The notes under the pieces were generated by a model that was not told the origin of the DNA, ran no database searches, and saw only the letters and a list, made by a program, of their open reading frames with translations. Shown here one piece after another: positions 389-33,961 of a stretch of DNA of 34,086 bases. Made by a program: the position numbers and the translations under genes. Source of the DNA: Thermoclostridium caenicola. GTDB taxonomy: Bacteria; Bacillota; Clostridia; DSM-8532. The stretch is from NCBI RefSeq assembly GCF_900142095.1, contig NZ_FQZP01000025.1:1-34086 (forward strand), in the 5' to 3' direction. How positions within the stretch are numbered: the stretch's first letter is position 1; the number at the start of each line of letters is the position of its first letter.

Positions 389-1498
389 ATGCGATTTACT
401 GGTGTAACTGATTCTGCTTATGCACTTTCCATAGATGATTTGCTCAGGATGACCGTTGAGCGCCGGGGTTCGGATCTCCACCTGGCTGTGGGCATGCCGC
501 CGTGCATCCGTATTCATGGGGATCTGGTACCGGTGGATGCGCCTGTGCTTAAGGCCCAGGATGTGGAGCATATGATCCTTTCCATCATCCAGGATTATCA
601 GAAGGAAAAACTGGAACAGGAAATGGAACTGGATTTTTCCTATGCGGTTCCCGGCTGTGCCCGGTTCAGGGGGAATGTGATGTTCCAGCGAGGCACGCTG
701 GCTGCGGTGTTCAGGGCTGTACCCTTTGTCATTCCTGATTTTGATAAGCTTGGATTGCCCCAGGACATTAAGCGGCTGTGCGATTTGCCAAGGGGACTCA
801 TCCTGGTTACCGGTCCTACGGGCAGCGGTAAATCCACCACCCTGGCAGCCATGATCGATCTGATCAACAACACCCGTGCCTGCAATATTGTGACGGTAGA
901 GGATCCCATTGAGTTTTTGCACAAGCATAAGAAATCTTCCGTAAGGCAGCGCGAAATCGGCACGGACACCCATTCGTTCGCTTCAGCCCTGCGCCATGTG
1001 CTGAGACATGACCCGGATATTATCATGATAGGGGAGATGCGGGACCAGGAGAGCATCAGCATCGCTTTGACAGCCGCCGAGACAGGGCATCTGGTTCTGT
1101 CCACCCTGCACACCCAAACTGCGCCGCTGACCATCACGCGCATCATCGATTCATTCAGCGAGGACAAGCGGGTTCAAATCAGGCAGCAACTGGCCAACTC
1201 CCTCCGGGCTGTCATATCCCAGCAGTTGATTCCCACCATCGACGGAAAGGGTCGGGTGGTTGCTGTGGAATACATGGTGGACACACCGGCCATCAGGAGC
1301 ATGATCCGCGAGGGCAAGGAGCATCAGCTCTATTCTGCCATCCAGACAGGCCAGAAGGATGGCATGCAGACCATGGATCAGGCTCTTGTCAAGCTGTTCA
1401 GAGCCGGAAGGATTTCAAGGGAGTCCGTTTTGGAGTATTGCGTGGACCGAGCGGAAGTGGAAAGGCTTATCAAGAACGCATTTTACGATCAGTTCTAG
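389..1498 (+). CDS. pilT: Type IV pilus retraction ATPase PilT
   Basis: This is a cytoplasmic hexameric AAA-like ATPase of the GspE/PilT secretion family. It powers depolymerisation of the pilus and so twitching. The 369-aa product has the usual PilT length. The N-terminal PAS-like half (about residues 12-110) carries the family opening GSDLHLAVGMPP. Walker A GPTGSGKST is at about 142-150, the Asp box around EDPIEF, Walker B DPDIIMIGE near 207, and the His box ETGHLVLSTLHT follows. The C-terminus has AIRSMIREGK, close to the AIRNLIRE retraction motif of PilT, and GMQTMD. A stop at 380-382 makes ATG 389 the first in-frame ATG. pilC follows 15 bp downstream, so the genes are co-transcribed. A second PilT-like gene lies at 9023-10093. 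Confidence 0.95.
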   Translation: MRFTGVTDSAYALSIDDLLRMTVERRGSDLHLAVGMPPCIRIHGDLVPVDAPVLKAQDVEHMILSIIQDYQKEKLEQEMELDFSYAVPGCARFRGNVMFQRGTLAAVFRAVPFVIPDFDKLGLPQDIKRLCDLPRGLILVTGPTGSGKSTTLAAMIDLINNTRACNIVTVEDPIEFLHKHKKSSVRQREIGTDTHSFASALRHVLRHDPDIIMIGEMRDQESISIALTAAETGHLVLSTLHTQTAPLTITRIIDSFSEDKRVQIRQQLANSLRAVISQQLIPTIDGKGRVVAVEYMVDTPAIRSMIREGKEHQLYSAIQTGQKDGMQTMDQALVKLFRAGRISRESVLEYCVDRAEVERLIKNAFYDQF

Positions 1499-1513
1499 CG
1501 GGGAGGATGTAAA

Positions 1514-2719
1514 ATGCCTGTATTCACCTACGAATGCATGAATAAGCAGGGTGAACTCATCACGGGAGAAATCACCGCGGATACAGTAGCCTCGGCAGCT
1601 GAAAGGCTGAGGTCTTCCGGTTATGCCGTCCTTGAACTGGCCGAATACAGGGAAAAGGTACGGAGCAGTTTTCTCTCAAACGAGCCCAAGGTGAAGCTTT
1701 CGGATATCACCCTGTTCAGCCGTCAGTTGGCGGCCATGCTTGGGGCAGGTATCCCTGTCACCCGTTCCCTCCATACCCTGAGCAAACAGTGTGAGAATCC
1801 TACCTTGAAAAATGCGTTGGAACATATCGCCCGGAATATTGAAGGGGGTATGAGCCTTACCGACGCCTTCAGTGCCTATCCGACGATATTTCCCAAGATT
1901 TACATATCCATGCTGAAGGCCGGTGAAGTAGGGGGAACGCTGGAAAAAACGCTCCTGCGCCTGTCTGATCAGCTTCAGAAGGAAAAGCAGGTCAAGGACA
2001 ATATCAAATCAGCCATGTCCTATCCGAAAATGATCTGCATTTTTACCGTGCTCATTTTCCTGGCCATGCTGATATTCATGGTCCCGGTTTTCAAAGGATT
2101 CATACCGTCATCTGCCGAGATCCCTGCCATTACCCAGTTCATTTTCAATCTCTCCGATTCCATACGCACCAGATGGTATGCCTGGGTACTGGTCGCGGGA
2201 GTTATTGTGGGCGGCATGATTCTGTTCTTCAAAAGTGAGGCCGGTCATGATCTTTGGGAGCAGTACAAGCTGAAGATACCCATCCTGGGGCCTATCATGG
2301 TCAAGTCGGTCATCGCCAGGTTTACAAGAACCCTTGCAACCTTGCTGGACGGCGGTATTCCGGTTGTTCAGGCACTGGAAAGTGCCGGTCCCACTTCGGG
2401 AAGCGATGTGCTGGCTGAAACGGTCAAACTGGCCACCAAGCGGATTGAGGAAGGAAAAACCATTGCATCCACACTGGAGGAGAGCCCGGTATTTCCGCCC
2501 ATGGTCACCCATATGATCGCAGTGGGTGAGGATTCGGGTACCCTGCCGACCTTGCTGGATAAAGTGGCCGAGTTTTATGAAGAGGAAGTGGATGTAGCCA
2601 CCAAGAGCCTTCAGGCTGTTATCCAGCCGGTACTGCTCATTTTTATCGGCACACTTATTGGAGGCATGCTGATTTCGCTGTATTTGCCGATGCTTACCGT
2701 TGTAGCCAATACAAGATAG
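1514..2719 (+). CDS. pilC: Type IV pilus inner-membrane platform protein PilC
   Basis: This is a polytopic GspF/PilC platform protein that couples the PilB and PilT ATPases to pilin insertion and removal. It is 401 aa, the usual length. It has two T2SSF domains, at about residues 65-190 and 270-390, each opening with the family pattern (SRQLAAMLGAGIPVTRSL and TRTLATLLDGGIPVVQAL). Three hydrophobic segments lie near residues 172-192, 221-240 and 369-393, as expected. A GGAGG ribosome site sits just before ATG 1514. It lies 15 bp after pilT and 52 bp before pilM, within one operon. Confidence 0.95.
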   Translation: MPVFTYECMNKQGELITGEITADTVASAAERLRSSGYAVLELAEYREKVRSSFLSNEPKVKLSDITLFSRQLAAMLGAGIPVTRSLHTLSKQCENPTLKNALEHIARNIEGGMSLTDAFSAYPTIFPKIYISMLKAGEVGGTLEKTLLRLSDQLQKEKQVKDNIKSAMSYPKMICIFTVLIFLAMLIFMVPVFKGFIPSSAEIPAITQFIFNLSDSIRTRWYAWVLVAGVIVGGMILFFKSEAGHDLWEQYKLKIPILGPIMVKSVIARFTRTLATLLDGGIPVVQALESAGPTSGSDVLAETVKLATKRIEEGKTIASTLEESPVFPPMVTHMIAVGEDSGTLPTLLDKVAEFYEEEVDVATKSLQAVIQPVLLIFIGTLIGGMLISLYLPMLTVVANTR

Positions 2720-2771
2720 CAGATTCTGACGATAGCATGTTGAACGTCTGCGAACAGGGGTTGAAAGAATA

Positions 2772-3722
2772 ATGGGTTTGTTTGATAAAAGGATTATTGG
2801 CCTGGAGCTGGATTCTAAGGAAATACGCGCCGTAGAAATCACCGGAAGCGTCCGTCAGCCCATGATAACGGCATGGGGTCGCATAAGCCTGCCCGAAGGA
2901 ACGGTGAAGGACGGCCGTATTGTCAACGCGGAATCCTTGTCATCGTACCTGGAAAGGCTGATTACCCAAAACGGTTTCAAATCACGGGATGTTCTGCTCG
3001 GCGTGGCAAACCAGGATGTGATCATCCGCTTTGCATCATTTCCGAAGGTTCCGGAAGACAAGATAAGGAATATGGTCATGTTCCAGGCCCAGGAATACAT
3101 ACCGGTCCCTCTGGAAGAACTGCAGCTGGATTATATCGTTGCAGGTGAAAAACAGAACGAGGAAGGCCACTTCCTGAACATCATCCTGGTTGGTGCCAGG
3201 CAGAAGATGCTCAACGATTTTATACAGGCTCTGAGCGGTGCCAGGCTGAATGTCAGGGAGATCGATTCGGTCACATTGGCCATCGGACGTGCAGCCATCA
3301 CTTCGGTCAATGAGAGCGTTTTTGCTGTGGCAGGATTCAACCATGATATCGCCAACCTGATGATCTTTAACAAAGGTTTGCTTGCCATGGCCCGATCGGT
3401 TCCGTTTTCCCAGACATCTGCATGGAAAAACGGCAGCGAGGAACCGGAAAGTTCCGGCGATATGGCGGACATCCTCATCAGTGAACTCCGATCCTGCATG
3501 AGCTACTACCGTATGCAAAGCGAGGATGCCATTGAAGGCATTTACCTGATCGGGTTGCCAAACATCAACAACATTGCCGGTAAATTCAAGGATGCCGGGT
3601 ATGAAGCGAAGATCGCACAGCCCTATAAGGATATCCCCTGGAAAAACAGCGGGCTTGCGAATTTCAATACCAACGATTATTCGGCTGCCATCAGCCTGGC
3701 CATCAGGGGATTGGAGGGATGA
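2772..3722 (+). CDS. pilM: Type IV pilus assembly protein PilM
   Basis: PilM is an actin-like (FtsA-fold) cytoplasmic ATP-binding protein. It binds the N-terminus of PilN and links the PilNO alignment complex to the cytoplasmic motor. The product is 316 aa, slightly short of the usual 350. It opens with IGLELDSKEIRAVEI, the first phosphate-binding strand of the family. The middle contains the LLGVANQDVIIR and ELQLDYIV segments typical of PilM, and there is no signal peptide or membrane helix, as expected. A GAAAG ribosome site precedes ATG 2772. The stop is followed after 3 bp by pilN, so translation of the two is probably coupled. Confidence 0.9.
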   Translation: MGLFDKRIIGLELDSKEIRAVEITGSVRQPMITAWGRISLPEGTVKDGRIVNAESLSSYLERLITQNGFKSRDVLLGVANQDVIIRFASFPKVPEDKIRNMVMFQAQEYIPVPLEELQLDYIVAGEKQNEEGHFLNIILVGARQKMLNDFIQALSGARLNVREIDSVTLAIGRAAITSVNESVFAVAGFNHDIANLMIFNKGLLAMARSVPFSQTSAWKNGSEEPESSGDMADILISELRSCMSYYRMQSEDAIEGIYLIGLPNINNIAGKFKDAGYEAKIAQPYKDIPWKNSGLANFNTNDYSAAISLAIRGLEG

Positions 3723-3725
3723 ACC

Positions 3726-4313
3726 ATGTATGCTGTCAGACTCCTGCCGCGAGAATACCAGGAATCCATTATCAAGGCAAGAAGAAACAGGCGTCTGTTG
3801 GCAGTTGAATGCGTGATCGCGATTATTCTGACAATTGCCTTGATCGTTTTGAACTTATATGCTTCCAACCTGAATCAGGAGCTTGGGGAACTGAAAGCGG
3901 AAAACGACAGGATATTTCAGCGCATTGAATCCTTAAGACCAGTGGAAGCGATGCAAAACCGGGTTCGGGATCTGACCGGACAGATGGCGGAAGTTCTTGG
4001 CACATGCCCCAACTGGGGAGAAATCCTGCCCAGGGTGGGCAACGCGTTGCCGCCGGATGTATCCCTGATTGGTCTTAATGCAAAGTATTCAGATGGTGCA
4101 AGCACAATAGTCATTACAGGCTTTGCCCCCGATCACGAAACCGTTTCCAGGTTGATGAAGAACCTGGCTGATGTGAATAATCTGGGCGAGATCTCATGCA
4201 GGTATTCCACAGCGGAGTCAGGGCGGGGACAGGTTTATGACGACATCCAGTTTGAGCTCACCATTCCCGTCGTATTCAATATCACCGATCTGACAGGGGG
4301 GAGCGGTCAATGA
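3726..4313 (+). CDS. pilN: Type IV pilus assembly protein PilN
   Basis: PilN is a bitopic membrane protein that binds PilM in the cytoplasm and pairs with PilO outside it. The product is 195 aa. It has a short basic cytoplasmic tail opening with MYAVRLLPREY, which resembles the conserved PilN NLLP motif that contacts PilM. One membrane helix lies at about residues 24-46, then a coiled coil to about residue 75, then a ferredoxin-like extracellular domain. A GGAGGGA ribosome site overlaps the end of pilM. The last bases overlap the start of the next gene in an ATGA. The assignment rests on topology and position between pilM and pilO more than on sequence. Confidence 0.85.
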   Translation: MYAVRLLPREYQESIIKARRNRRLLAVECVIAIILTIALIVLNLYASNLNQELGELKAENDRIFQRIESLRPVEAMQNRVRDLTGQMAEVLGTCPNWGEILPRVGNALPPDVSLIGLNAKYSDGASTIVITGFAPDHETVSRLMKNLADVNNLGEISCRYSTAESGRGQVYDDIQFELTIPVVFNITDLTGGSGQ

Positions 4314-4849
4314 ACACGTTAAGCGGTAAGAAAACGCAGATAACCCTTTTCCTCGTTTTATTGGGCATCCTGATCCTTGCCCTGACCGCCCTGACGGTTT
4401 TATCGGTTATCAAAATAACCGAAACATCTGCTTCTATCCGCAATGAAGAGCAAATCCTGCGGGAAAATGAAAGCACGCTGGCAAAAATGGAACTGCTGTC
4501 GATCATTGAAAATGAACTCAAGCAGTCATTTGAAAGATTGTATCGGATGATCCCTGAGCAGGCCCATGAGGATCAGCTGATTGCCTACATAAACCGCCTG
4601 TCGGAAAAGGCCGGGCTGGAATTGCTGACGGTTGAATTCCTTGAAAAGGTGGTAAATACAGATAATAAACCGAATGAAATGCCAATGTCATTAACCTTCA
4701 GGGGCGGCTACTCGCAACTGATCACGCTGTTGAGGAGCATGAGCACGGGAGAAAGGCTTATCCGGGTGGACGAAGTTACCATCGCCAATGAAAAGGCTGA
4801 TCATAAGAACATGAAAATCAACATAAAAGCTCATGCGTTTTACAGATAA
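4310..4849 (+). CDS. pilO: Type IV pilus assembly protein PilO-like
   Basis: This is the probable PilO partner of PilN. The 179-aa product has one N-terminal membrane helix (about residues 11-35), a charged coiled coil (about 40-75) and a small alpha/beta domain containing LIAYINRLSEKAGLELL and a conserved-looking segment around RGGYSQLITLLRSM. This matches the usual PilO plan. The start overlaps the pilN stop by 4 bp (ATGA), a standard sign of translational coupling. Assignment is by size, topology and order (M-N-O-B). PilO sequences diverge strongly, so the exact family needs a profile search. Confidence 0.82.
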   Translation: MNTLSGKKTQITLFLVLLGILILALTALTVLSVIKITETSASIRNEEQILRENESTLAKMELLSIIENELKQSFERLYRMIPEQAHEDQLIAYINRLSEKAGLELLTVEFLEKVVNTDNKPNEMPMSLTFRGGYSQLITLLRSMSTGERLIRVDEVTIANEKADHKNMKINIKAHAFYR

Positions 4850-4891
4850 CAGCGATTCCACCACCAGACAAAAAGTTAGGGATGAACAGTT

Positions 4892-6589
4892 ATGGTTATG
4901 CGATCTGAAGTGGGGTACCTGGGCGAGCAACTCATCAAGATGGGCATCGTCAACGAGGAACAACTGAAGGAGGCTCTTGAGCTTCAGGCCAGGAACAAGG
5001 CCAAGGGGATCCGGATCATGCTTGGTCAGGCGCTTACTCAGCTTGGCTATTGCAAGGAAGAGGATATTGCCAGGGCCATGGCCAGAAAATGGGGCCTGGA
5101 ATTTATTACATTGAAGCAGCAGGGCATCGATATGGCGGCGGCCAACCTGATCTCGCCCGAGATTGCACAGAAATACAAACTGCTCCCGATCCGCATTCAG
5201 AATGGCAAGCTCCTTGTCGCCATGAGCAATCCCAATGACATCATCGCCATCGACGACATTGAGCTGCTGACGGGCTATGAGGTCCAGCCTGTCATTGTGA
5301 TGGACAGGGAACTGAACCTGGCCCTCGAGCAATTCACGAACCTCAGCAAGGGGATTGATACCCGGAATATCGAGGACGAGGAAGAAGAGGAAAAGGTAAG
5401 CTCCATTGATGACGAGGCCAATGAAAAACCCGCCGTCCAGCTGGTAAACCAGATCCTCCATCAGGCTGTGAAAACGAATGCCAGTGACGTCCATATTGAA
5501 CCTCAGGAAAAGTATACACGCGTCCGGTTCAGGATCGACGGCGTCCTTCATGAAGTTACTCAGGCACCGCTAAAGCTTCATCCCACCATTACTTCAAGGA
5601 TTAAGGTCATGGGCGGTATGGATATTGCGGAGCGAAGGGTGCCCCAGGATGGAAGAATAACGGTCAGGATCGAAGACAAAACCATCGATATCCGTGTAGC
5701 CACACTGCCATCCGCACATGGCGAGAAGGTGACTATGAGGCTGCTCAATCGGTCCAGCAAGGTCTTTACCCTGGAAGAACTGGGGTTCCCGGACAGGCAT
5801 CTGAGGCGTTATGAGAAAACCATCCGGCTTCCTTATGGTTTCATCCTCATCACGGGACCCACGGGCAGCGGAAAGAGTACCACCCTCTATGCGACGCTGG
5901 CAAAGCTCAACTCACCCGACAAAAACATCATCACGCTGGAGGACCCCATCGAGCGGCGCATGGACGGCATAAACCAAATACAAATGAATGCCCGTGCCGG
6001 CATGACTTTCGCATCCGGTCTCAGATCCATTCTGAGAAGCGATCCGGACATCATCATGGTCGGCGAGATTCGTGACATGGAAACGGCCAAGATCGCTGTG
6101 GAATCGGCCCTTACCGGACACCTGGTCTTTTCAACCCTGCATACCAATGATGCACCCGGTGCTGTTACCAGGCTGGGCGAGATGGGGGTTGAACCTTTTT
6201 TGACCGCTTCATCCCTGCTCGGTGTGGTGGCCCAGCGACTGGTGCGTGTTCTTTGCCCGGAATGCAAGAAAGCCTTTACGTTTTCCAGGGAAGATATCCT
6301 CAAGAGCGTTCCGGATTTTCCGGTTGAGCCGGATGAAAAAACCGTAACCCTGTACAAACCCGTAGGCTGCATGGCCTGCAACCATACCGGCTATAAGGGC
6401 AGAATCGGCGTTTACGAGTTTCTGACTGTATCGGAATCCATCCAGAAACTGATTCTGGAACAAGCTTCAACCAATGTTATCAGAAAGGTTGCCATGAGCG
6501 AAGGGATGAACACCCTCCGTCAGGATGGGCTCATGAAAGTGAAGCAAGGCTTGACATCCATGGAAGAACTGCTCAGGGTTGTCATGTAG
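4892..6589 (+). CDS. pilB: Type IV pilus extension ATPase PilB
   Basis: PilB is a hexameric GspE-family ATPase that drives pilin polymerisation. It is 565 aa, full length. The N-terminal MshEN (GSPII_E) domain, at about residues 5-150, contains LGEQLIKMGIVNEEQL and is the type of domain that can bind cyclic di-GMP in some relatives. An acidic linker of about 20 residues (IEDEEEEEK) follows. The C-terminal ATPase carries NASDVHIEP, Walker A GPTGSGKST at about 322-330, the Asp box LEDPIE, Walker B DPDIIMVGEIRD at about 384 and the His box ALTGHLVFSTLHTND. A four-cysteine zinc motif (CPEC near 455 and CMAC near 495) is present, which separates PilB from PilT. ATG 4892 and ATG 4898 are both possible starts. 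Confidence 0.96.
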   Translation: MVMRSEVGYLGEQLIKMGIVNEEQLKEALELQARNKAKGIRIMLGQALTQLGYCKEEDIARAMARKWGLEFITLKQQGIDMAAANLISPEIAQKYKLLPIRIQNGKLLVAMSNPNDIIAIDDIELLTGYEVQPVIVMDRELNLALEQFTNLSKGIDTRNIEDEEEEEKVSSIDDEANEKPAVQLVNQILHQAVKTNASDVHIEPQEKYTRVRFRIDGVLHEVTQAPLKLHPTITSRIKVMGGMDIAERRVPQDGRITVRIEDKTIDIRVATLPSAHGEKVTMRLLNRSSKVFTLEELGFPDRHLRRYEKTIRLPYGFILITGPTGSGKSTTLYATLAKLNSPDKNIITLEDPIERRMDGINQIQMNARAGMTFASGLRSILRSDPDIIMVGEIRDMETAKIAVESALTGHLVFSTLHTNDAPGAVTRLGEMGVEPFLTASSLLGVVAQRLVRVLCPECKKAFTFSREDILKSVPDFPVEPDEKTVTLYKPVGCMACNHTGYKGRIGVYEFLTVSESIQKLILEQASTNVIRKVAMSEGMNTLRQDGLMKVKQGLTSMEELLRVVM

Positions 6590-6613
6590 GATTGCCTGAG
6601 AAGGGATGGTAAG

Positions 6614-8155
6614 ATGTTTGGGATTTTAAAGTCAAACAAGGGAATGGCCCTGCCCCTGGTGCTGGTTGTTATGGTTGTCCTGATGGTATTCAGCACCGCG
6701 ATTCTTGGCATGGGTGCCACCGATACGCTGATGTCAGCCCATGACAGCAACAAGTCACAGGCCTACTATTATGCCCATTCAGGCGCAGAAGCGGTAGCTT
6801 CCTATATCGTGGAAAATCCCGACGGTCTGTCCGAAAGCGAACGCAAGGCATTGGTAGACCGTATGATCGCTGCCGGTGCCAGCAATCCGTTTACCCTGTC
6901 TTCTTCTGACAGCGGGGTCATCGTCGTCGACATGAGCCGATCGGGCAATACCATTTCCATCCGTTCAACAGCCACTTACCAGGGTATACAGGAGTCTGTC
7001 ACCCTGAATATCCTGGAGACCGTTATTGGTGGAGAACCCTTTAACAAGGCGATTTATTCCAGAGGCAACATCACGATCAGCGAAGGCGGTACCGTTGAAG
7101 GCGATGTTGCCAGCTTGTCGAGAATTGCCCTGGACGGCGGCAGCAGGGTCACCGGAACCATTTATATCCACCCGGATGCGGACGAGTCTTCTTTCAGCAG
7201 TCTACCCTGGATCAGCACAACGATTGAGAACCTTACGGAGATCTTTGACTACGACACGTTTCCATTCCCGGAATTTCCGCCTTATCCCGCAGGGCTTCCT
7301 TCCGACAACACGACACTTAACGTAAGCAGCGGTACCCGGAGAATAGAGAATGACGTCTATTACAGGGGTGGAATTAACGTCACCAACGGTGAACTGCAAA
7401 TTGTCCGCAATAACACGGATCGTGTCATACGGACAAGGTACCTGCGGGTATCCGGCTCCGGCAGGATTACGGATATCCGGAGCGGTAATCGGACGCTGCA
7501 GATCTATATCGATGAAGATTTGCAGATATCTTCCGATAACACCTTGACCTTTGATTTGGGAAACGGAGATATCATCCTGAGGGTCAGAAGGCTTCTTTTG
7601 AACCAGGGGCATATTCAGGTCAACCACAATGGCACAGGAAAGCTTTACATCTTTGTAGATGATGTTTTCCATATCGACGGAAGCAGTTCCATCAATCACA
7701 GTTGGAGCGCTTCTGCCGCCCAACTGGAGGATTGGGCCAAAAAGGTCCTGGTCTATTATGCCGGAACCATTGACAAGGATGGCAACGATATCAGGAATCC
7801 GGGCAACAGCTACTACCTGAAGTTCCCCAACGCAGTCAAGGTGGTAGCCACGCTGCACGTCAAGGAAGCAAAGATTCATATTACCAATGGTACCGGCGTA
7901 GTGGGCAATATCATTTCGGGAGGCAGCAAACTGCAATTTGATGGCGGTACCAACTCCGACGTGAAGGTGGTATACGCGCCCAATGCCGAAATCGAGGTCA
8001 GGGGAGGTGCCCTGGTCACCGGCATTGTGGTTTGCGATTCTTTCAGCATGTCAGGCGGCGCGAGGGTCAAGTATCAGCCGATAGGCGAAGAAGAAATGGA
8101 GTATTTCAAGGATGTGGCCGGTAAAACCGTGTATACCTATGGCCACTGGGAATAA
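6614..8155 (+). CDS. PilX-like pilus-associated surface protein with repetitive beta domain
   Basis: The N-terminus (residues 9-36, GMALPLVLVVMVVLMVFSTA) is the hydrophobic helix seen in PilX-type minor pilin proteins. It is followed by the typical KSQAYYYAHSGAEAVASYIVE segment. These proteins have a G-[MF]-[AS]-L-P cleavage-like context rather than the classical GFTLVE. From about residue 135 onward the 513-aa protein becomes Gly/Asn/Ser/Thr-rich, with repeated short strands (ITISEGGTVEGDV, INVTNGELQIV, IHITNGTGVVGNI, VRGGALVTGIV). That suggests a parallel beta-helix or bactofilin-like polymer-forming fold. In the operon it lies 24 bp after pilB and before two minor prepilins. It may be a tip or adhesin subunit, but that is inference. 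Confidence 0.8.
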   Translation: MFGILKSNKGMALPLVLVVMVVLMVFSTAILGMGATDTLMSAHDSNKSQAYYYAHSGAEAVASYIVENPDGLSESERKALVDRMIAAGASNPFTLSSSDSGVIVVDMSRSGNTISIRSTATYQGIQESVTLNILETVIGGEPFNKAIYSRGNITISEGGTVEGDVASLSRIALDGGSRVTGTIYIHPDADESSFSSLPWISTTIENLTEIFDYDTFPFPEFPPYPAGLPSDNTTLNVSSGTRRIENDVYYRGGINVTNGELQIVRNNTDRVIRTRYLRVSGSGRITDIRSGNRTLQIYIDEDLQISSDNTLTFDLGNGDIILRVRRLLLNQGHIQVNHNGTGKLYIFVDDVFHIDGSSSINHSWSASAAQLEDWAKKVLVYYAGTIDKDGNDIRNPGNSYYLKFPNAVKVVATLHVKEAKIHITNGTGVVGNIISGGSKLQFDGGTNSDVKVVYAPNAEIEVRGGALVTGIVVCDSFSMSGGARVKYQPIGEEEMEYFKDVAGKTVYTYGHWE

Positions 8156-8179
8156 GCGAAGCCCTGGGGGTGATGTCAT

Positions 8180-8506
8180 TTGAAGAATACCGGCGGATTC
8201 AGCGTGGCAGAAATACTGGTATGCCTGATGCTCATCGGTCTGATCGTCATCATGGTTTTGCCATCCATCACATATGGCTTCATTCAGCTCAACGAGTCGG
8301 GTGAAAGGACGAAGGCGGTCTATACCGTCCGTCAGGCCGTGGAAAATGAGCTGGCCAATGCGACGCCCGGCCCGACATCGGATACCCTCAGAATCACCTT
8401 CAACAGGGATACCATTGCTGTAAAAGGGCGCATCATGGAGACAGAAGCAACCTTTGGCACCAAGGGAGACAGGACACGTATCAGGGTCTTTATACCGAAC
8501 AAGTAA
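8180..8506 (+). CDS. Minor type IV prepilin (pseudopilin), 108 aa
   Basis: This is a class III signal-peptide protein. The short leader MKNTGG precedes the cleavage site G|FSVAE, with Phe at +1 and Glu at +5 of the mature protein, followed by a hydrophobic helix ending in a Pro (IVIMVLPSI). This is the N-terminal signature of prepilin peptidase substrates. The start is TTG at 8180, supported by GGGGTGATG just upstream; no ATG lies before the pilin signature in this frame. The C-terminal part is short and unremarkable, and the specific minor pilin class cannot be told. It lies 24 bp after the PilX-like gene. Confidence 0.85.
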   Translation: MKNTGGFSVAEILVCLMLIGLIVIMVLPSITYGFIQLNESGERTKAVYTVRQAVENELANATPGPTSDTLRITFNRDTIAVKGRIMETEATFGTKGDRTRIRVFIPNK

Positions 8507-8528
8507 GACGGGCGGGGTGCTTCTTGCG

Positions 8529-9020
8529 ATGAAAGGAAAAAAAGGGTTCACGCTTGCTGAACTGATAGTTTTTCTGGCCTTGCTCGGCGTGGTGCTGGCC
8601 ATCGGCTACAGGCTGTTCTTCTTGGGCCAGAATACCTTTACCAGGGGGAGCGACCGTTTCGAACTGCAGTCCGAAATGCGTTCAGCGGGGGATTTCCTGC
8701 TGGATGAACTGAGAAATGCCGTTGAGGTGGAAATCCTTGATGCGCCAACGGACGAAGCCGATTATCATTACATATACCTTGATGGCTCTCGGATTGTCCA
8801 TAAATATAACGGGAGTACCAAAGTCATCACCCTTCCCATCATCCGGGATGAGGACCTGTTCACGCTCAAAAAAGACAGCGGCAACAAGAACTTCCTGGGC
8901 ATCCGCATGACCGGAATCCGCAACGGCAATACCTACGACCTGTCCACAGAGGTTTTTCTGAAGAATATTGCCAACCTGGATCCGGATTCCGGGAAGGTGA
9001 TCAAGTACAAAAAGCCATAG
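8529..9020 (+). CDS. Minor type IV prepilin (PilW/ComGF-like), 163 aa
   Basis: The leader MKGKKG precedes the cleavage site G|FTLAE with Glu at +5, then a hydrophobic helix (LIVFLALLGVVLAIGYRLFF). The frame is open upstream to 8454, but that would place the pilin signature after 31 residues and overlap the previous gene. ATG 8529, with GGCGGGGTG upstream, gives the normal six-residue leader and is preferred. The mature region contains FELQSEMRSAGDFLLDELRNA, a helix common in PilW/ComGF-like minor pilins, which prime pilus assembly. The gene ends 2 bp from the end of the convergent pilT2. Confidence 0.85.
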   Translation: MKGKKGFTLAELIVFLALLGVVLAIGYRLFFLGQNTFTRGSDRFELQSEMRSAGDFLLDELRNAVEVEILDAPTDEADYHYIYLDGSRIVHKYNGSTKVITLPIIRDEDLFTLKKDSGNKNFLGIRMTGIRNGNTYDLSTEVFLKNIANLDPDSGKVIKYKKP

Positions 9021-9022
9021 GA

Positions 9023-10093
9023 TCAGTAGGATAGCATCCGCTTCATATATTCCGGATCGGATGCGTAAGCCAGGGCGTTTTCGATACTGATCCTGTTCTC
9101 CCTGACCAGATCCAGGAGGGAGGCATCCATGGATTTCATGAAGAGCTTGCCGCTGGTCTGGATGACATTGGAAATCTGATGGATTTTGTTGTCCCGGATC
9201 AGGTTCTTGATGGCCGGCGTGGTGATCATGATCTCGGTCGCCAGGGCCCTGTCCCTGCCGTCCACCGTCGGGATCAGCTGCTGGGAAATGACCGCCTGCA
9301 GGACCATCGATAGCTGGGTGCGTATCTGCTGCTGCTGGAAAGGGGGGAAGACATCGATGATGCGGTCAATGGTCTTGGAGGCACCGATGGTATGGAGCGT
9401 GGACAGAACCAGATGTCCGGTTTCGGCCGCCGTGAGTGCAATGGAAATGCTGTCCAGGTCGCGCATCTCGCCAATGAGGATCACGTCGGGATCCTGGCGG
9501 AGCACGGCACGGAGCGCATTGGCATAGCTCAATGAATCATAGCCGATCTCCCTTTGGTTGACTATGCTCCGTTTGTGCTCATGGACGTATTCGATGGGAT
9601 CCTCCAGCGTGACGATGTGGCAGTCCCTGTTGCTGTTAATCCAGTCCACCATGGCAGCCAGCGTGGTGGTCTTGCCGGCCCCTGTGGGACCGGTAATCAG
9701 GATAAGCCCTCTGTTCAGGGAACACAGGTCTTCCAGCACCGGCGGCAACCCAAGAGCCTTGAAATCCTTGATGATGGGATTCAGCATCCTGATGGCCAGG
9801 CTGTAACAGGATTTCTGCCGGAAGATGTTGATACGGCAGCGATATTTTTCATAGGAGGAAATGGAGATGTCTATTTCCCCGGTTTCGTGCAGATGGTGCA
9901 GCTGTTTCTCATTGAGAAGCTGAACGGCATAGGCTTCCGTATCCCGGGGTTCCACCCTGGCATAGGGAAGGGGGCGCAGATGACCGTTGACCCGGCAGGT
10001 AGGAGGGATTCCCACGGAGATATGCAAATCCGAAGCGTTCAGTTTCAGGGTTTCATCGATGAGCGTGAAGATATTGTCGCATTTGCGTTCCAC
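9023..10093 (-). CDS. Second PilT-family ATPase (PilT2/PilU-like)
   Basis: This is a second retraction-type ATPase, 356 aa, encoded opposite the pilus operon. It has NASDLHISVGIPP at the N-terminus, Walker A GPTGAGKTT, Asp box LEDPIEYVHEHK, Walker B DPDVILIGEMRD and His box ETGHLVLSTLHT. The C-terminus differs from pilT at 389: AIKNLIRDNK instead of AIRSMIREGK, and FMKSMD instead of GMQTMD. No zinc cysteines are present, so it is PilT-like and not PilB-like. The start is GTG at 10093; no start codon lies further upstream in frame, and AGGACAGGATGG is the only ribosome-site-like stretch. It could act as an auxiliary (PilU-like) motor; that role is inference. A TATAAT promoter lies about 40 bp upstream. 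Confidence 0.93.
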   Translation of the reverse strand: MERKCDNIFTLIDETLKLNASDLHISVGIPPTCRVNGHLRPLPYARVEPRDTEAYAVQLLNEKQLHHLHETGEIDISISSYEKYRCRINIFRQKSCYSLAIRMLNPIIKDFKALGLPPVLEDLCSLNRGLILITGPTGAGKTTTLAAMVDWINSNRDCHIVTLEDPIEYVHEHKRSIVNQREIGYDSLSYANALRAVLRQDPDVILIGEMRDLDSISIALTAAETGHLVLSTLHTIGASKTIDRIIDVFPPFQQQQIRTQLSMVLQAVISQQLIPTVDGRDRALATEIMITTPAIKNLIRDNKIHQISNVIQTSGKLFMKSMDASLLDLVRENRISIENALAYASDPEYMKRMLSY

Positions 10094-10131
10094 GGTGGTT
10101 CCATCCTGTCCTTTCCATGGTTTTTTATGGT

Positions 10132-10160
10132 ATTATAGCAGAAATTATGGGTTAGGCCAA
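10132..10160 (-). promoter_or_regulatory. SigA-type promoter of pilT2
   Basis: On the minus strand a -35 box TTGGCC (plus 10155-10160) and a perfect -10 box TATAAT (plus 10132-10137) are separated by 17 bp. The transcript would start near 10125, about 30 nt before the GTG of pilT2. It diverges from the pilA promoter about 80 bp away. Confidence 0.5.
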
Positions 10161-10241
10161 ACAGTTTTTTGCGGTTTGCTGACGGCGTACTGACATATTT
10201 GTATATTATACCTATCCGACAGGATATTGCGGCAATCATTC

Positions 10242-10270
10242 TTGTCATAAGTGCAATAGTGTGGTATATT
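10242..10270 (+). promoter_or_regulatory. Promoter of the major pilin gene
   Basis: A -35 box TTGTCA (10242-10247), a 17-bp spacer and a -10 box TATATT (10265-10270) with the extended -10 TG at 10262-10263. The predicted start near 10277 leaves a leader of about 70 nt before pilA. It is among the best promoters in the window, fitting a highly expressed pilin. Confidence 0.65.
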
Positions 10271-10347
10271 ATTGTACAGATAACCATTGATTAGTATGGC
10301 TGGCTTTGTCAGCTGATAATAAACAAAAAAAGTAGGAGGGTCATTTT

Positions 10348-10674
10348 ATGCTCAAAAGATTCAAGAAAAACAACAAAGGCTTCACCCTGGTAGAGCTGAT
10401 GGTGGTTGTTGTCATCCTGGGCATATTGGTAGCCATCGCCGTGCCCATTTATAACAGCATTACCGGTAATGCAGAGAAGAATGCATGCCATGCCAACCTG
10501 AGAACCATTGACGGAGCGAAAACCCAGTATGCGGTATCTTCCGGACTGACCTGGCCAGGTGACTTCTTCCGTGGAGGTACAATACCGAAATGCCCTTCCG
10601 GTGGTACTTACTCGCACACCGACCCCACCGATGCTGATCAGGCAGAATGTTCTGAACACGGTACATATAAATAA
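10348..10674 (+). CDS. pilA: Major type IV pilin PilA
   Basis: The leader MLKRFKKNNKG precedes the cleavage site G|FTLVE, with Glu at +5. The hydrophobic helix that follows contains ILGILVAIAVPIYN, the classical type IVa pilin signature. The mature protein is about 97 aa. The C-terminus has the CPSGGTY...CSEHG arrangement seen in many Gram-positive and T2SS-like pilins, so its cysteines probably stabilise the globular head. A third Cys lies near residue 48 (NACHANL). The ribosome site AGGAGGG is strong. Its own promoter at 10242-10270 and a terminator directly after the stop point to a short abundant transcript, as expected for the main pilus subunit. Being the major subunit is inferred from that context. 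Confidence 0.9.
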   Translation: MLKRFKKNNKGFTLVELMVVVVILGILVAIAVPIYNSITGNAEKNACHANLRTIDGAKTQYAVSSGLTWPGDFFRGGTIPKCPSGGTYSHTDPTDADQAECSEHGTYK

Positions 10675-10677
10675 ACT

Positions 10678-10703
10678 AAAGCCAGCTTCCAAGCTGGCTT
10701 TTT
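10678..10703 (+). terminator. Rho-independent terminator between pilA and the second pilin gene
   Basis: A perfect inverted repeat with 11-base arms (AAAGCCAGCTT at 10678-10688 and AAGCTGGCTTT at 10691-10701) is followed by T residues to 10703. It begins 4 bp after the pilA stop and ends 10 bp before the next pilin-like gene. Confidence 0.85.
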
Positions 10704-10712
10704 AAGAGAAAC

Positions 10713-11111
10713 ATGATGGGTGCGAAAAAACGAGTGAAAATGCTGCGCCAAAAGAGCGGGTTGTGCATCGCAACGGGAAGCCCGGTGGGTTTCACGCTGG
10801 TGGAACTCATGATCGTGGTCCTCATTCTGGGAATACTCGTCGGCATCGCTGTCCCGCTATACAATGCCTCGCGGGAAAGGGCCGAAGAAACGGCATGCCT
10901 TTCAAACCAGAGGCTGATTAACAAGGCTTTGGAGGAATGGCGGATGGAAAGGGGTACGATGAGCAAGCCCTATCCCGCCGATGTGCAGCAGTTGGTGGAC
11001 GACGGTTATCTCCGGCATGTCCCTGCCTGCAAAGGTCATCCGTTTACAAAAATAGACGATGCCACCGGGCTAACAGAGTGCCCTGCCGGCGGCAGGCATG
11101 TGCTGCCGTAA
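10713..11111 (+). CDS. Second type IV pilin-like protein, 132 aa
   Basis: This is a prepilin with the cleavage site G|FTLVE and a helix nearly identical to that of PilA (GFTLVELMIVVLILGILVGIAVPLYN). The head is different: VPACKGHPF and TECPAGGRHV supply two cysteines near the C-terminus, so a disulfide-closed loop is likely. From ATG 10713 the leader would be 26 residues, unusually long; the in-frame ATG at 10740 gives a 17-residue leader. No strong ribosome site marks either. It has no evident promoter of its own and lies directly behind the pilA terminator, so it is probably expressed by read-through at a lower level. Confidence 0.85.
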   Translation: MMGAKKRVKMLRQKSGLCIATGSPVGFTLVELMIVVLILGILVGIAVPLYNASRERAEETACLSNQRLINKALEEWRMERGTMSKPYPADVQQLVDDGYLRHVPACKGHPFTKIDDATGLTECPAGGRHVLP

Positions 11112-31891: not shown

Positions 31892-32332
31892 ATGGCAACG
31901 GAAACCAGATTTCCTGTTCGGTATGCAGAGACAGACCAGATGGGCATCGTGCACCATTCGGTCTATCCCGTATGGTTCGAGTGCGGTCGTACCGAGCATA
32001 TCAAATCCTACGGCTTACCCTATGATGAGCTGGAAAGATTGGGAATCATGCTTCCCCTCATTCGGCTGGAAGCGGAATACAAAAAACCGGTTCACTACGG
32101 TGAAACGGTCGTGGTTCGCACTTCCATCGCCGAGGCAACAAAGGTCAGACTTTTAATCGCTTATGAAGTATATGTTGATGGTGATCCGCAGCTCAGGGCC
32201 AGGGGCTGCACGGAGCATGTCTGGACATCTTCGGATCTGAAGCCTGTCAATCTTGCCAAATACAGACCGGACATCTATGAACGGCTGATACGGATGTTCA
32301 ATGAAGCAACAGGAGAAAGACCCGGACAATGA
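31892..32332 (+). CDS. Acyl-CoA thioesterase, YbgC/FadM type (hotdog fold)
   Basis: A single hotdog domain of the 4HBT superfamily, 146 aa. The N-terminal motif RYAETDQMGIVHHSVYPVWFE contains the catalytic Asp15 and the family pattern D-x-M-G-x-V-x-x-x-x-Y. The rest forms the usual central helix and beta sheet (GIMLPLIRLEAEYKKPVHYGETVVV). It probably hydrolyses short or medium acyl-CoA; the substrate cannot be read from sequence. The ribosome site is AAGGGG. It lies 11 bp after pfkA, and its stop overlaps the following start (ATGA), so the three genes appear to be one transcript. Confidence 0.88.
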   Translation: MATETRFPVRYAETDQMGIVHHSVYPVWFECGRTEHIKSYGLPYDELERLGIMLPLIRLEAEYKKPVHYGETVVVRTSIAEATKVRLLIAYEVYVDGDPQLRARGCTEHVWTSSDLKPVNLAKYRPDIYERLIRMFNEATGERPGQ

Positions 32333-32865
32333 ATAGGATAATCAAGCACATTCCCAATATCCTGACTGTTTTGAGAATGGCGGCTGTCCCTGTGTTCTTT
32401 GTACTGATGAGGGACAACCTGATCACCGCTGCCACATGGGTATTCCTGCTGGCCGAGTTTACCGATGTGCTGGACGGCATCATTGCCAGAAAATTCAACC
32501 TGATCACGCCCTTCGGCAAGATAGCCGATCCTGTTGCCGACAAGATGATGCAGCTGACAGCCCTGTTCATGCTGAGCAGAATGGATATGATTCCGCGTAT
32601 CATTCCTTTCCTTGTCCTGTTTAAGGAGTTGTTCCTGCTCATTTCGGGGCTGTACCTGATTAGAAAGAAGTTTGACATGTCATCCAAATGGTTCGGGAAA
32701 CTGACATCGGTGTTGTTTTTTGTGGCCATCATGATGGCTTTCCTCGGCGTCCCCAGGGAGATTACCGATGTGATGCTCTGGATCTGTGTGGGGATGGCGG
32801 TTTTCGCCTCCATCATGTATGCCAGGAATTATTTCAACCAGGTGGGCAAAAAGCCTTTTTCCTGA
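32329..32865 (+). CDS. pgsA: CDP-alcohol phosphatidyltransferase, probably PgsA
   Basis: This is an integral membrane enzyme of the CDP-alcohol phosphatidyltransferase family. The 178-aa size fits CDP-diacylglycerol-glycerol-3-phosphate 3-phosphatidyltransferase, which commits CDP-DAG to phosphatidylglycerol. The full signature D-x2-D-G-x2-A-R-x8-G-x3-D-x3-D is present (Asp46, Asp49, Arg54, Gly63, Asp67 and Asp71). The opening IPNILTVLRMAAVPVF is typical of PgsA. About five to six hydrophobic segments follow. It overlaps the thioesterase stop by 4 bp. A paralogue for another head group (for example cardiolipin or phosphatidylserine) cannot be excluded. Confidence 0.87.
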   Translation: MNRIIKHIPNILTVLRMAAVPVFFVLMRDNLITAATWVFLLAEFTDVLDGIIARKFNLITPFGKIADPVADKMMQLTALFMLSRMDMIPRIIPFLVLFKELFLLISGLYLIRKKFDMSSKWFGKLTSVLFFVAIMMAFLGVPREITDVMLWICVGMAVFASIMYARNYFNQVGKKPFS

Positions 32866-32926: not shown

Positions 32927-33049
32927 TTAGTTGCAGCATCCGCCGCCGAACAGACCTCTGTCCCAGAACAGACAAAGGAATATCAGAATGAAGAACAGTA
33001 CTGTGCAATCACCATTGAATCCGGTCCTGGCTCCTAATACGTTATCCAT
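32927..33049 (-). CDS. 40-aa membrane micro-protein, FWDRG family (copy 2)
   Basis: A short ORF read from the minus strand: ATG at 33049, stop at 32927. The 11-base ribosome site GGAAGGAGGTG lies 5 nt upstream, among the best in the window. The product has a polar N-terminus ending FNGDC, a single hydrophobic helix (residues 16-28, TVLFFILIFLCLF), then WDRG and a Gly/Cys tail (LFGGGCCN). It aligns with the neighbouring 35-aa protein at (D/N)C-x-VL-x-F-I-(L/I)-(I/L)-F-L-x-LFWDRG. I do not recognise a named family; it resembles in style the tiny Gly/Cys-tailed membrane proteins of spore formers. An intrinsic terminator follows. Confidence 0.72.
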   Translation of the reverse strand: MDNVLGARTGFNGDCTVLFFILIFLCLFWDRGLFGGGCCN

Positions 33050-33092
33050 AATGGCACCTCCTTCCAGGGAAAGTTAATGCTCTCCAGCGGCA

Positions 33093-33200
33093 TCAGCAGG
33101 ATGACTCGGAGTAGCCGCCCCTATCCCAGAAAAGCAGCAGGAAAAGGATGATGAACATAAGGACTTCACAATTGTCGCCCAAACCTTTGAAGAATCCCAT
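33093..33200 (-). CDS. 35-aa membrane micro-protein, FWDRG family (copy 1)
   Basis: Minus strand, ATG at 33200, stop at 33093, with GGGAGG 7 nt upstream. The product begins MGFFKGLGDNC, has one hydrophobic helix (EVLMFIILFLLLF, residues 12-24), then WDRGG and a short tail ending SESSC. It is a paralogue of the 40-aa product of the next gene, 43 bp downstream, with the same Cys before and FWDRG after the helix. Both probably sit in one two-gene transcript ending at the terminator 32892-32916. The function is unknown. Confidence 0.7.
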   Translation of the reverse strand: MGFFKGLGDNCEVLMFIILFLLLFWDRGGYSESSC

Positions 33201-33454
33201 ATGATAACCTCCCATGCCTTATTGAACTCAATACATTCTATTCCAATCCATAAAAATGGGTTACAAGACATGCCGGAATCAAAAAACGCCGTTGTCGGGC
33301 ATTCGGTCCGGGTTGGCAGACTTTAAGGCAAATCCCCCCCGCGAACATTTTAATGGGTGAGAGGGAAGACCCGTGGAAGGCAGGCCCTGATATCCCTGCT
33401 CAGTGTTCTATGTTCGCTTTATTCTGAATAGGATCAGACAGTGGATCGGACATA

Positions 33455-33961
33455 ATGGGGGAATGGTTTGTGAAGGACGGGGCATACAATGCCAACGCCA
33501 GTATAAGGGATTACCTGAAAAGCCTCATTAAAAGCGTTGCTGTTTCATTCATCCTCACCTTTGTGATCCTGGTCATAGCGGCACTGCTTCTCTGTTTCAC
33601 CGATTTTCCGGAAAAGTACACCCTGCCATCCGCTATTGCCGCCACGGTGCTGGGGGTTTTGGCCGGAAGCTACGGGGCAGCCAGAAAAAATCAGGACAGG
33701 CGCATCCTGTCTGCATTGATACTGGGCCTGTTCTATTCAATCCTGGCCTATCTCATCGGCTGCCTGATCCAGGGGAAGCTGATGATCAGCAGCAATACCG
33801 GGCTCTTCACGGCAATCGTTATGGCAACGGCAGCAATAGGCGGCATCCTGGCAGGCAGGCCTGTAAAGCCCAAGAGCAAGTACAAGGGCGGATCCAATAT
33901 CTTTTCCGACCGGTTTAAAAAGAGCGCCACCGGCGGCTACAAGTTCGGAAAAAGCAGTTAA
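33455..33961 (+). CDS. TIGR04086-type membrane protein
   Basis: The 168-aa product has four hydrophobic segments (about residues 28-48, 58-76, 83-104 and 115-134) and a basic Gly/Ser/Lys tail (KPKSKYKGGSNIFSDRFKKS). The TM1 region SLIKSVAVSFILTFVILVIAALLL, the SYGAARKN loop and the GGILAGRP end resemble the TIGR04086 family of Firmicute membrane proteins, whose function is not known. As I recall, members often lie next to the genes for the SCIFF ranthipeptide and its radical-SAM maturase. That is from memory and cannot be checked here because the window ends 125 bp downstream. ATG 33455 has only a weak GGATCGGA ribosome site. Confidence 0.75.
   Translation: MGEWFVKDGAYNANASIRDYLKSLIKSVAVSFILTFVILVIAALLLCFTDFPEKYTLPSAIAATVLGVLAGSYGAARKNQDRRILSALILGLFYSILAYLIGCLIQGKLMISSNTGLFTAIVMATAAIGGILAGRPVKPKSKYKGGSNIFSDRFKKSATGGYKFGKSS

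Follow-up and report, generated by a model that had tools for sequence, protein, structure and literature searches.

Among the very small sporulation proteins of Bacillus subtilis, SscA is linked with coat assembly. The same link was described for CmpA, while SpoVM is a sporulation micro-protein which acts at the outer forespore membrane (PMC7911427). Bacillus also has tiny one-helix transmembrane proteins of the YjcZ type that are connected with sporulation, and yjcZ, like cotA, is part of the sigma-K regulon in B. subtilis (PMC517825). Clostridial coats have few proteins in common with Bacillus coats (PMC3789822).

The locus analyzed here consists of two short adjacent genes, A and B, located in a 34,086-nt stretch of Thermoclostridium caenicola DNA (the window). 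The A and B proteins and their relatives are similar to the YjcZ-type proteins in size, which is below about 60 aa, and in having one hydrophobic helix. They differ from them in that they form two fixed helix types, which occur in pairs and were found only in their own class. Moreover, none of the 56 family members compared to Pfam and NCBIfam, both of which contain YjcZ models, had a match better than E 0.02, and the matches were never to a spore family. At the outer forespore membrane, the closest micro-protein precedent is SpoVM, but this is a 26-aa amphipathic protein controlled by sigma-E, whereas A and B have a fully hydrophobic helix, tails containing Cys and Tyr, and a sigma-K-type promoter. 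Neither an amphipathic, curvature-sensing helix nor sigma-E control was recognized in A and B, their promoter being unlike that of spoIVA. The proteins CmpA and SscA resemble A and B in their small size and in their connection with sporulation, and no family match was found for A and B in Pfam or NCBIfam. As far as the searched libraries show, A and B belong to a widespread and unnamed family of clostridial sporulation micro-proteins.

Two paired genes and their relatives in Clostridia

Both genes are located on the minus strand. Gene A (33093–33200, start at 33200) encodes a 35-aa protein, MGFFKGLGDNCEVLMFIILFLLLFWDRGGYSESSC, and gene B (32927–33049, start at 33049) encodes a 40-aa protein, MDNVLGARTGFNGDCTVLFFILIFLCLFWDRGLFGGGCCN. 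As the initial annotation had described, each is preceded by a strong ribosome site, which is GGGAGG at 33208–33213 for A and AAGGAGGTG at 33055–33063 for B, and an intrinsic terminator with a T7 run (32923–32891, minus strand) closes the unit after B. AlphaFold2 predictions from single sequences gave one long helix in each protein, spanning residues 8–28 of A and 14–31 of B, with moderate confidence. The flanking genes, both outside the A-B unit and on the plus strand, encode a pgsA-like CDP-alcohol phosphatidyltransferase (32329–32865, convergent) and a TIGR04086/DUF3792 membrane protein (33455–33961, divergent). The position of the pair between pgsA and the TIGR04086 gene, both on the opposite strand, is kept in the source family, while the single-helix genes of other families of the class have different neighbors.

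When B was used to query the whole source genome, only the A and B loci were returned, with 47% identity between A and B (E = 3.5e-6). The first search for relatives covered 61 genomes, which were the source genome and 60 relatives, and it recovered the pair across the source genus and in the greater part of its family and order, as paired ORFs of which nearly all have a strong G-rich ribosome site upstream. An alignment of these relatives was then used as a profile against 291 genomes of the class, and matches were found in 66 of them, with up to nine per genome. The recurrence of the pair in the genus, family, and order, together with the relatives in the class, argues that A and B are not chance ORFs. 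In the source genus the pS and pN values were 0.17 and 0 for A (pN/pS of 0), and 0.39 and 0.02 for B (pN/pS of 0.06), while the pN/pS value of the core was about 0.15 over the relatives in the family (25 A and 29 B sequences). The initial annotation had argued from duplication with conserved features that these were real genes, and had proposed the comparison of synonymous and nonsynonymous changes as a check; the homologues were indeed found, and the substitutions spared the frame and the protein. There is hardly any doubt, judging by these sequence comparisons, that A and B are real genes. The idea of a membrane micro-protein family which arose by duplication is likewise supported.

To define the family at the level of the class, 40 stretches were fetched and aligned with the source-family members, which gave 56 single-helix sequences and several fused two-helix ones. 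The core of the family is [SCD][ET][IV]L[FWM]FI[IL][LIV]FL[LC]LF, and the helix is fully hydrophobic. Two features previously regarded as shared by the proteins proved to be more local. The FWDRG motif was rejected as a defining one, because it is confined to the genus level, and its W-D is often replaced by Y-N, F-N, C-N, or W-G elsewhere in the family. The Cys before the helix is similarly local, as the residue preceding Glu/Thr is S, C, or D across the family. Positions 20, 21, and 28 (B numbering) are invariant and positions 18, 24, 25, and 27 nearly so, while the variable positions 19, 22, 23, and 26 fall on one helix face. The confinement of variability to one face is suggestive only, as the periodicity at 100 degrees had a permutation p value of 0.066.

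The members are of two fixed types, with FIIL in A and FIL[IV] in B. Type A has Ile22 in 30/30, Leu23 in 29/30, and Leu26 in 29/30 members, while type B has Leu22, Val or Ile at 23, and Cys, Leu, or Phe at 26, with Phe19 fixed in 26/26. Adjacent genes combined an A with a B in 42 of 43 pairs, in either gene order, and in 13 of 14 pairs outside the source order; many of the 43 pairs share descent and so are not 43 independent events, with both gene orders and many families being represented. This heterotypic pairing suggests that the A and B products act together. The pairing with swapped Ile and Leu residues also provides a compact natural case for the study of helix–helix recognition in membranes. 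A Cys or Tyr is present in 93% of the C-terminal tails.

The phylum-wide sample of 299 genomes gave no match at E ≤ 1e-5 outside the source genome, a scan of named genomes yielded nine close relatives only, the family profile had no match in the PDB, and a literature search for the core peptides found nothing. Inside the class sample, spoIVA was present in 60 of the 66 genomes carrying the family versus 148 of the 225 noncarriers, an association uncorrected for, and confounded by, phylogeny. All six carriers without spoIVA have spoVAC, and five of them are less than 90% complete. Among the strong carriers (E < 1e-6), spoIVA or spoVAC was found in 38/38. Thus, by gene content, all 66 carriers are spore formers.

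A sigma-K-type promoter upstream of gene A

The alignment of the DNA upstream of A genes showed a block, TAAC-N16-GAATANNNT, which is much more conserved than its surroundings. It precedes 26 of the 28 A genes, the two exceptions (L014 and L021) being both near contig ends. In the window it corresponds to a putative −35 element TAACC (33259–33263, minus strand) and a putative −10 element GAATAGAATG (33234–33243, minus strand), separated by a gap of 15. For sigma-K of B. subtilis, the consensus reads KCACM at −35 and GCATANNNTA at −10 (PMC3416734), with a gap of 14–16 between the elements (PMC517825). The source-family block departs from this consensus once at −35 and once (C to A) or twice at −10, where it reads GAATA instead of GCATA. 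The exact sigma-K −10 is found in many relatives from other families, for example CATACTATA and CATAATATA, and the class-wide −10 is of the CATANNNTA type, accompanied by an AC-type −35 at a gap of 14–16, as in sigma-K elements. The pattern AC-N16/17-[CA]ATANNNT was found before 35 of the 49 first genes class-wide, compared to a mean of 2.9 and a maximum of 8 in shuffles, and before one of the nine second genes.

Two genes served as controls. The yabG gene is a sigma-K gene in Bacillus. Because the source family lacks it, the comparison with yabG was confined to other families, where in several genomes it is preceded by AC...CATATTATG. The upstream region of the sigma-E gene spoIVA has ATAT at −35 and AATANNNT at −10 in the source family. 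An A thus replaces the C at −10 in the spoIVA promoter too, so that this substitution is a habit of the source family, and it is the −35 by which the two factors can be told apart. The spoIVA upstream regions L130–L138 have AATANNNT rather than CATANNNT at −10, suggesting that promoter preference has shifted across the whole lineage.

Other promoter types were also considered. The promoter scan gave no match to a sigma-A promoter, nor does the conserved block look like one. A sigma-G promoter with GAATA as the −35 was rejected, because a properly spaced −10 would coincide with the ribosome site, so that the transcript would lack a leader. An ECF-type promoter, in which the upstream element would be read as TGTAAC, is not favored, since both the class-wide CATANNNTA at −10 and the sharing of the element with coat genes favor sigma-K. 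The source genome contains an intact sigma-K gene, above the family cut-off and in one open frame. Taken together, these sequence features make it very probable that the A-B pair is expressed by sigma-K in the mother cell.

The strict form of the element occurs in the source genome only at the A-B pair and before a YmaF-family gene. The degenerate form was modestly enriched genome-wide, with 75 matches versus 41 in a reversed control; because of this ratio, most of the degenerate matches are likely due to chance. Matches followed by a good ribosome site, with a start 30–62 bases downstream, were retained as candidates, and they included genes for a SipL-domain (SPOCS) protein, a CotA-like multicopper oxidase, a superoxide dismutase, a cupin with a Tyr-rich start, and YmaF. 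Caution comes from C. difficile, in which the sodA product is found on the spore, yet the gene was assigned to sigma-G (PMC3789822). The YmaF-family gene (L070:1561-2001, contig C9 near 40.4 kb) could be under sigma-K control in this lineage, and the regions L155, L156, L160, L173, and L193 contain putative sigma-K genes, which encode the SipL-domain protein, the superoxide dismutase, the CotA-like oxidase, the Tyr-rich cupin, and a Cys-rich unannotated protein.

Proposed role at the forespore membrane and its alternatives

The explanation that we favor, with a probability of roughly 0.6, is that RNA polymerase with sigma-K would transcribe the A-B two-gene unit late in sporulation, in the mother cell, and that each product would place its single hydrophobic helix in a membrane, for which the outer forespore membrane is the best candidate. 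Both helices would be made together because they cooperate, probably as a hetero-oligomer; one helix face is strictly conserved between A and B, and the other (positions 19, 22, 23, and 26) distinguishes them. Their short tails, rich in Gly, Asn, Cys, and Tyr, would become cross-linked to the coat above them and thereby tie it to the membrane. The late mother-cell timing is well supported by the promoter sequences, while we infer the membrane side, the association of A with B, and the coat cross-linking, the coat and cross-linking roles from tail composition and by analogy. The initial suggestion that the proteins are spore- or envelope-related is upheld in its spore part by the sigma-K-type promoter, the restriction to spore formers, and the spore-gene neighbors of fused relatives; as to the envelope, it is probable that A and B are components of the spore envelope. 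That an A/B complex serves as a membrane-to-coat anchor is a tentative proposal, made by analogy, with odds somewhat below even. It is doubtful, though conceivable, that Clostridia have a dedicated lattice of two micro-helix components, one A and one B, which would be made under sigma-K, hold the coat at the outer forespore membrane, have no counterpart in Bacillus, and have been missed by annotation. The family would bear on how the clostridial coat is held to the spore membrane, and with up to nine copies per genome in many clostridial families, and absent from Pfam and NCBIfam, it offers a ready set of targets.

The fused two-helix (B-B) forms are located in a conserved operon with unannotated small proteins, beside sleB or gerAA-AB-AC. 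Their position in several genomes could suggest that the helices are germination accessories, which assist the GerA receptor, or SleB in its breakdown of the cortex, once the spore is complete. Both GerA receptors and SleB are forespore products, with their sites of action at the inner membrane and the cortex. The promoter of A is, in contrast, of the mother-cell type, and the pair in the window and in the source family does not adjoin germination genes, which makes this role unlikely. The fused B-B forms at L076, L078, L079, L083, L091, and L108 are 62–69 aa long, and one operon partner has two hydrophobic stretches at its end.

A holin-like effector and its partner, made late by sigma-K to permeabilize the mother cell and free the spore, would likewise be small and hydrophobic, form a fixed pair, and have a late mother-cell type of promoter. 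However, the window proteins and two others had no match in PHROGs better than E 0.9, the neighbors of the pair are housekeeping genes, the Cys/Tyr/Gly tails look like those of coat proteins, and lysis proteins would not usually occur in several copies per genome or as fused doubles next to germination genes. Hence, a lysis function is improbable.

An earlier role, in engulfment or in the basement layer of the coat, would follow if the unit were controlled by sigma-E instead of sigma-K. The B. subtilis sigma-E consensus is TYATATTT at −35 and KCATANANTN at −10, and a −10 of CATANNNT is common to both factors (PMC3416734), which would allow this assignment. On the other hand, the −35 of the A genes is AC and not ATA, in contrast to spoIVA in the same genomes, and sigma-K is therefore preferred; there is only a slim chance that sigma-E controls the unit. 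The initial annotation also considered that A and B might regulate a membrane enzyme, and the neighboring phosphatidyltransferase would be one such enzyme. This is very improbable, because pgsA, although it adjoins the single-helix genes in the source family, is convergent and has its own unit, and in other families the neighbors are unrelated.

With regard to the genomic surroundings, the copies at L104, L111, L073, L107, and L110 are, as judged by eye, near a gene for a heavy-metal-type P-type ATPase or for an ArsR-like regulator, which may be a coincidence. The region 389–11111 of the window contains, also as judged by eye, a type IV pilus/type II secretion-like cluster with two PilT-like ATPases, PilB-, PilC-, and PilM-like proteins, and several prepilins.
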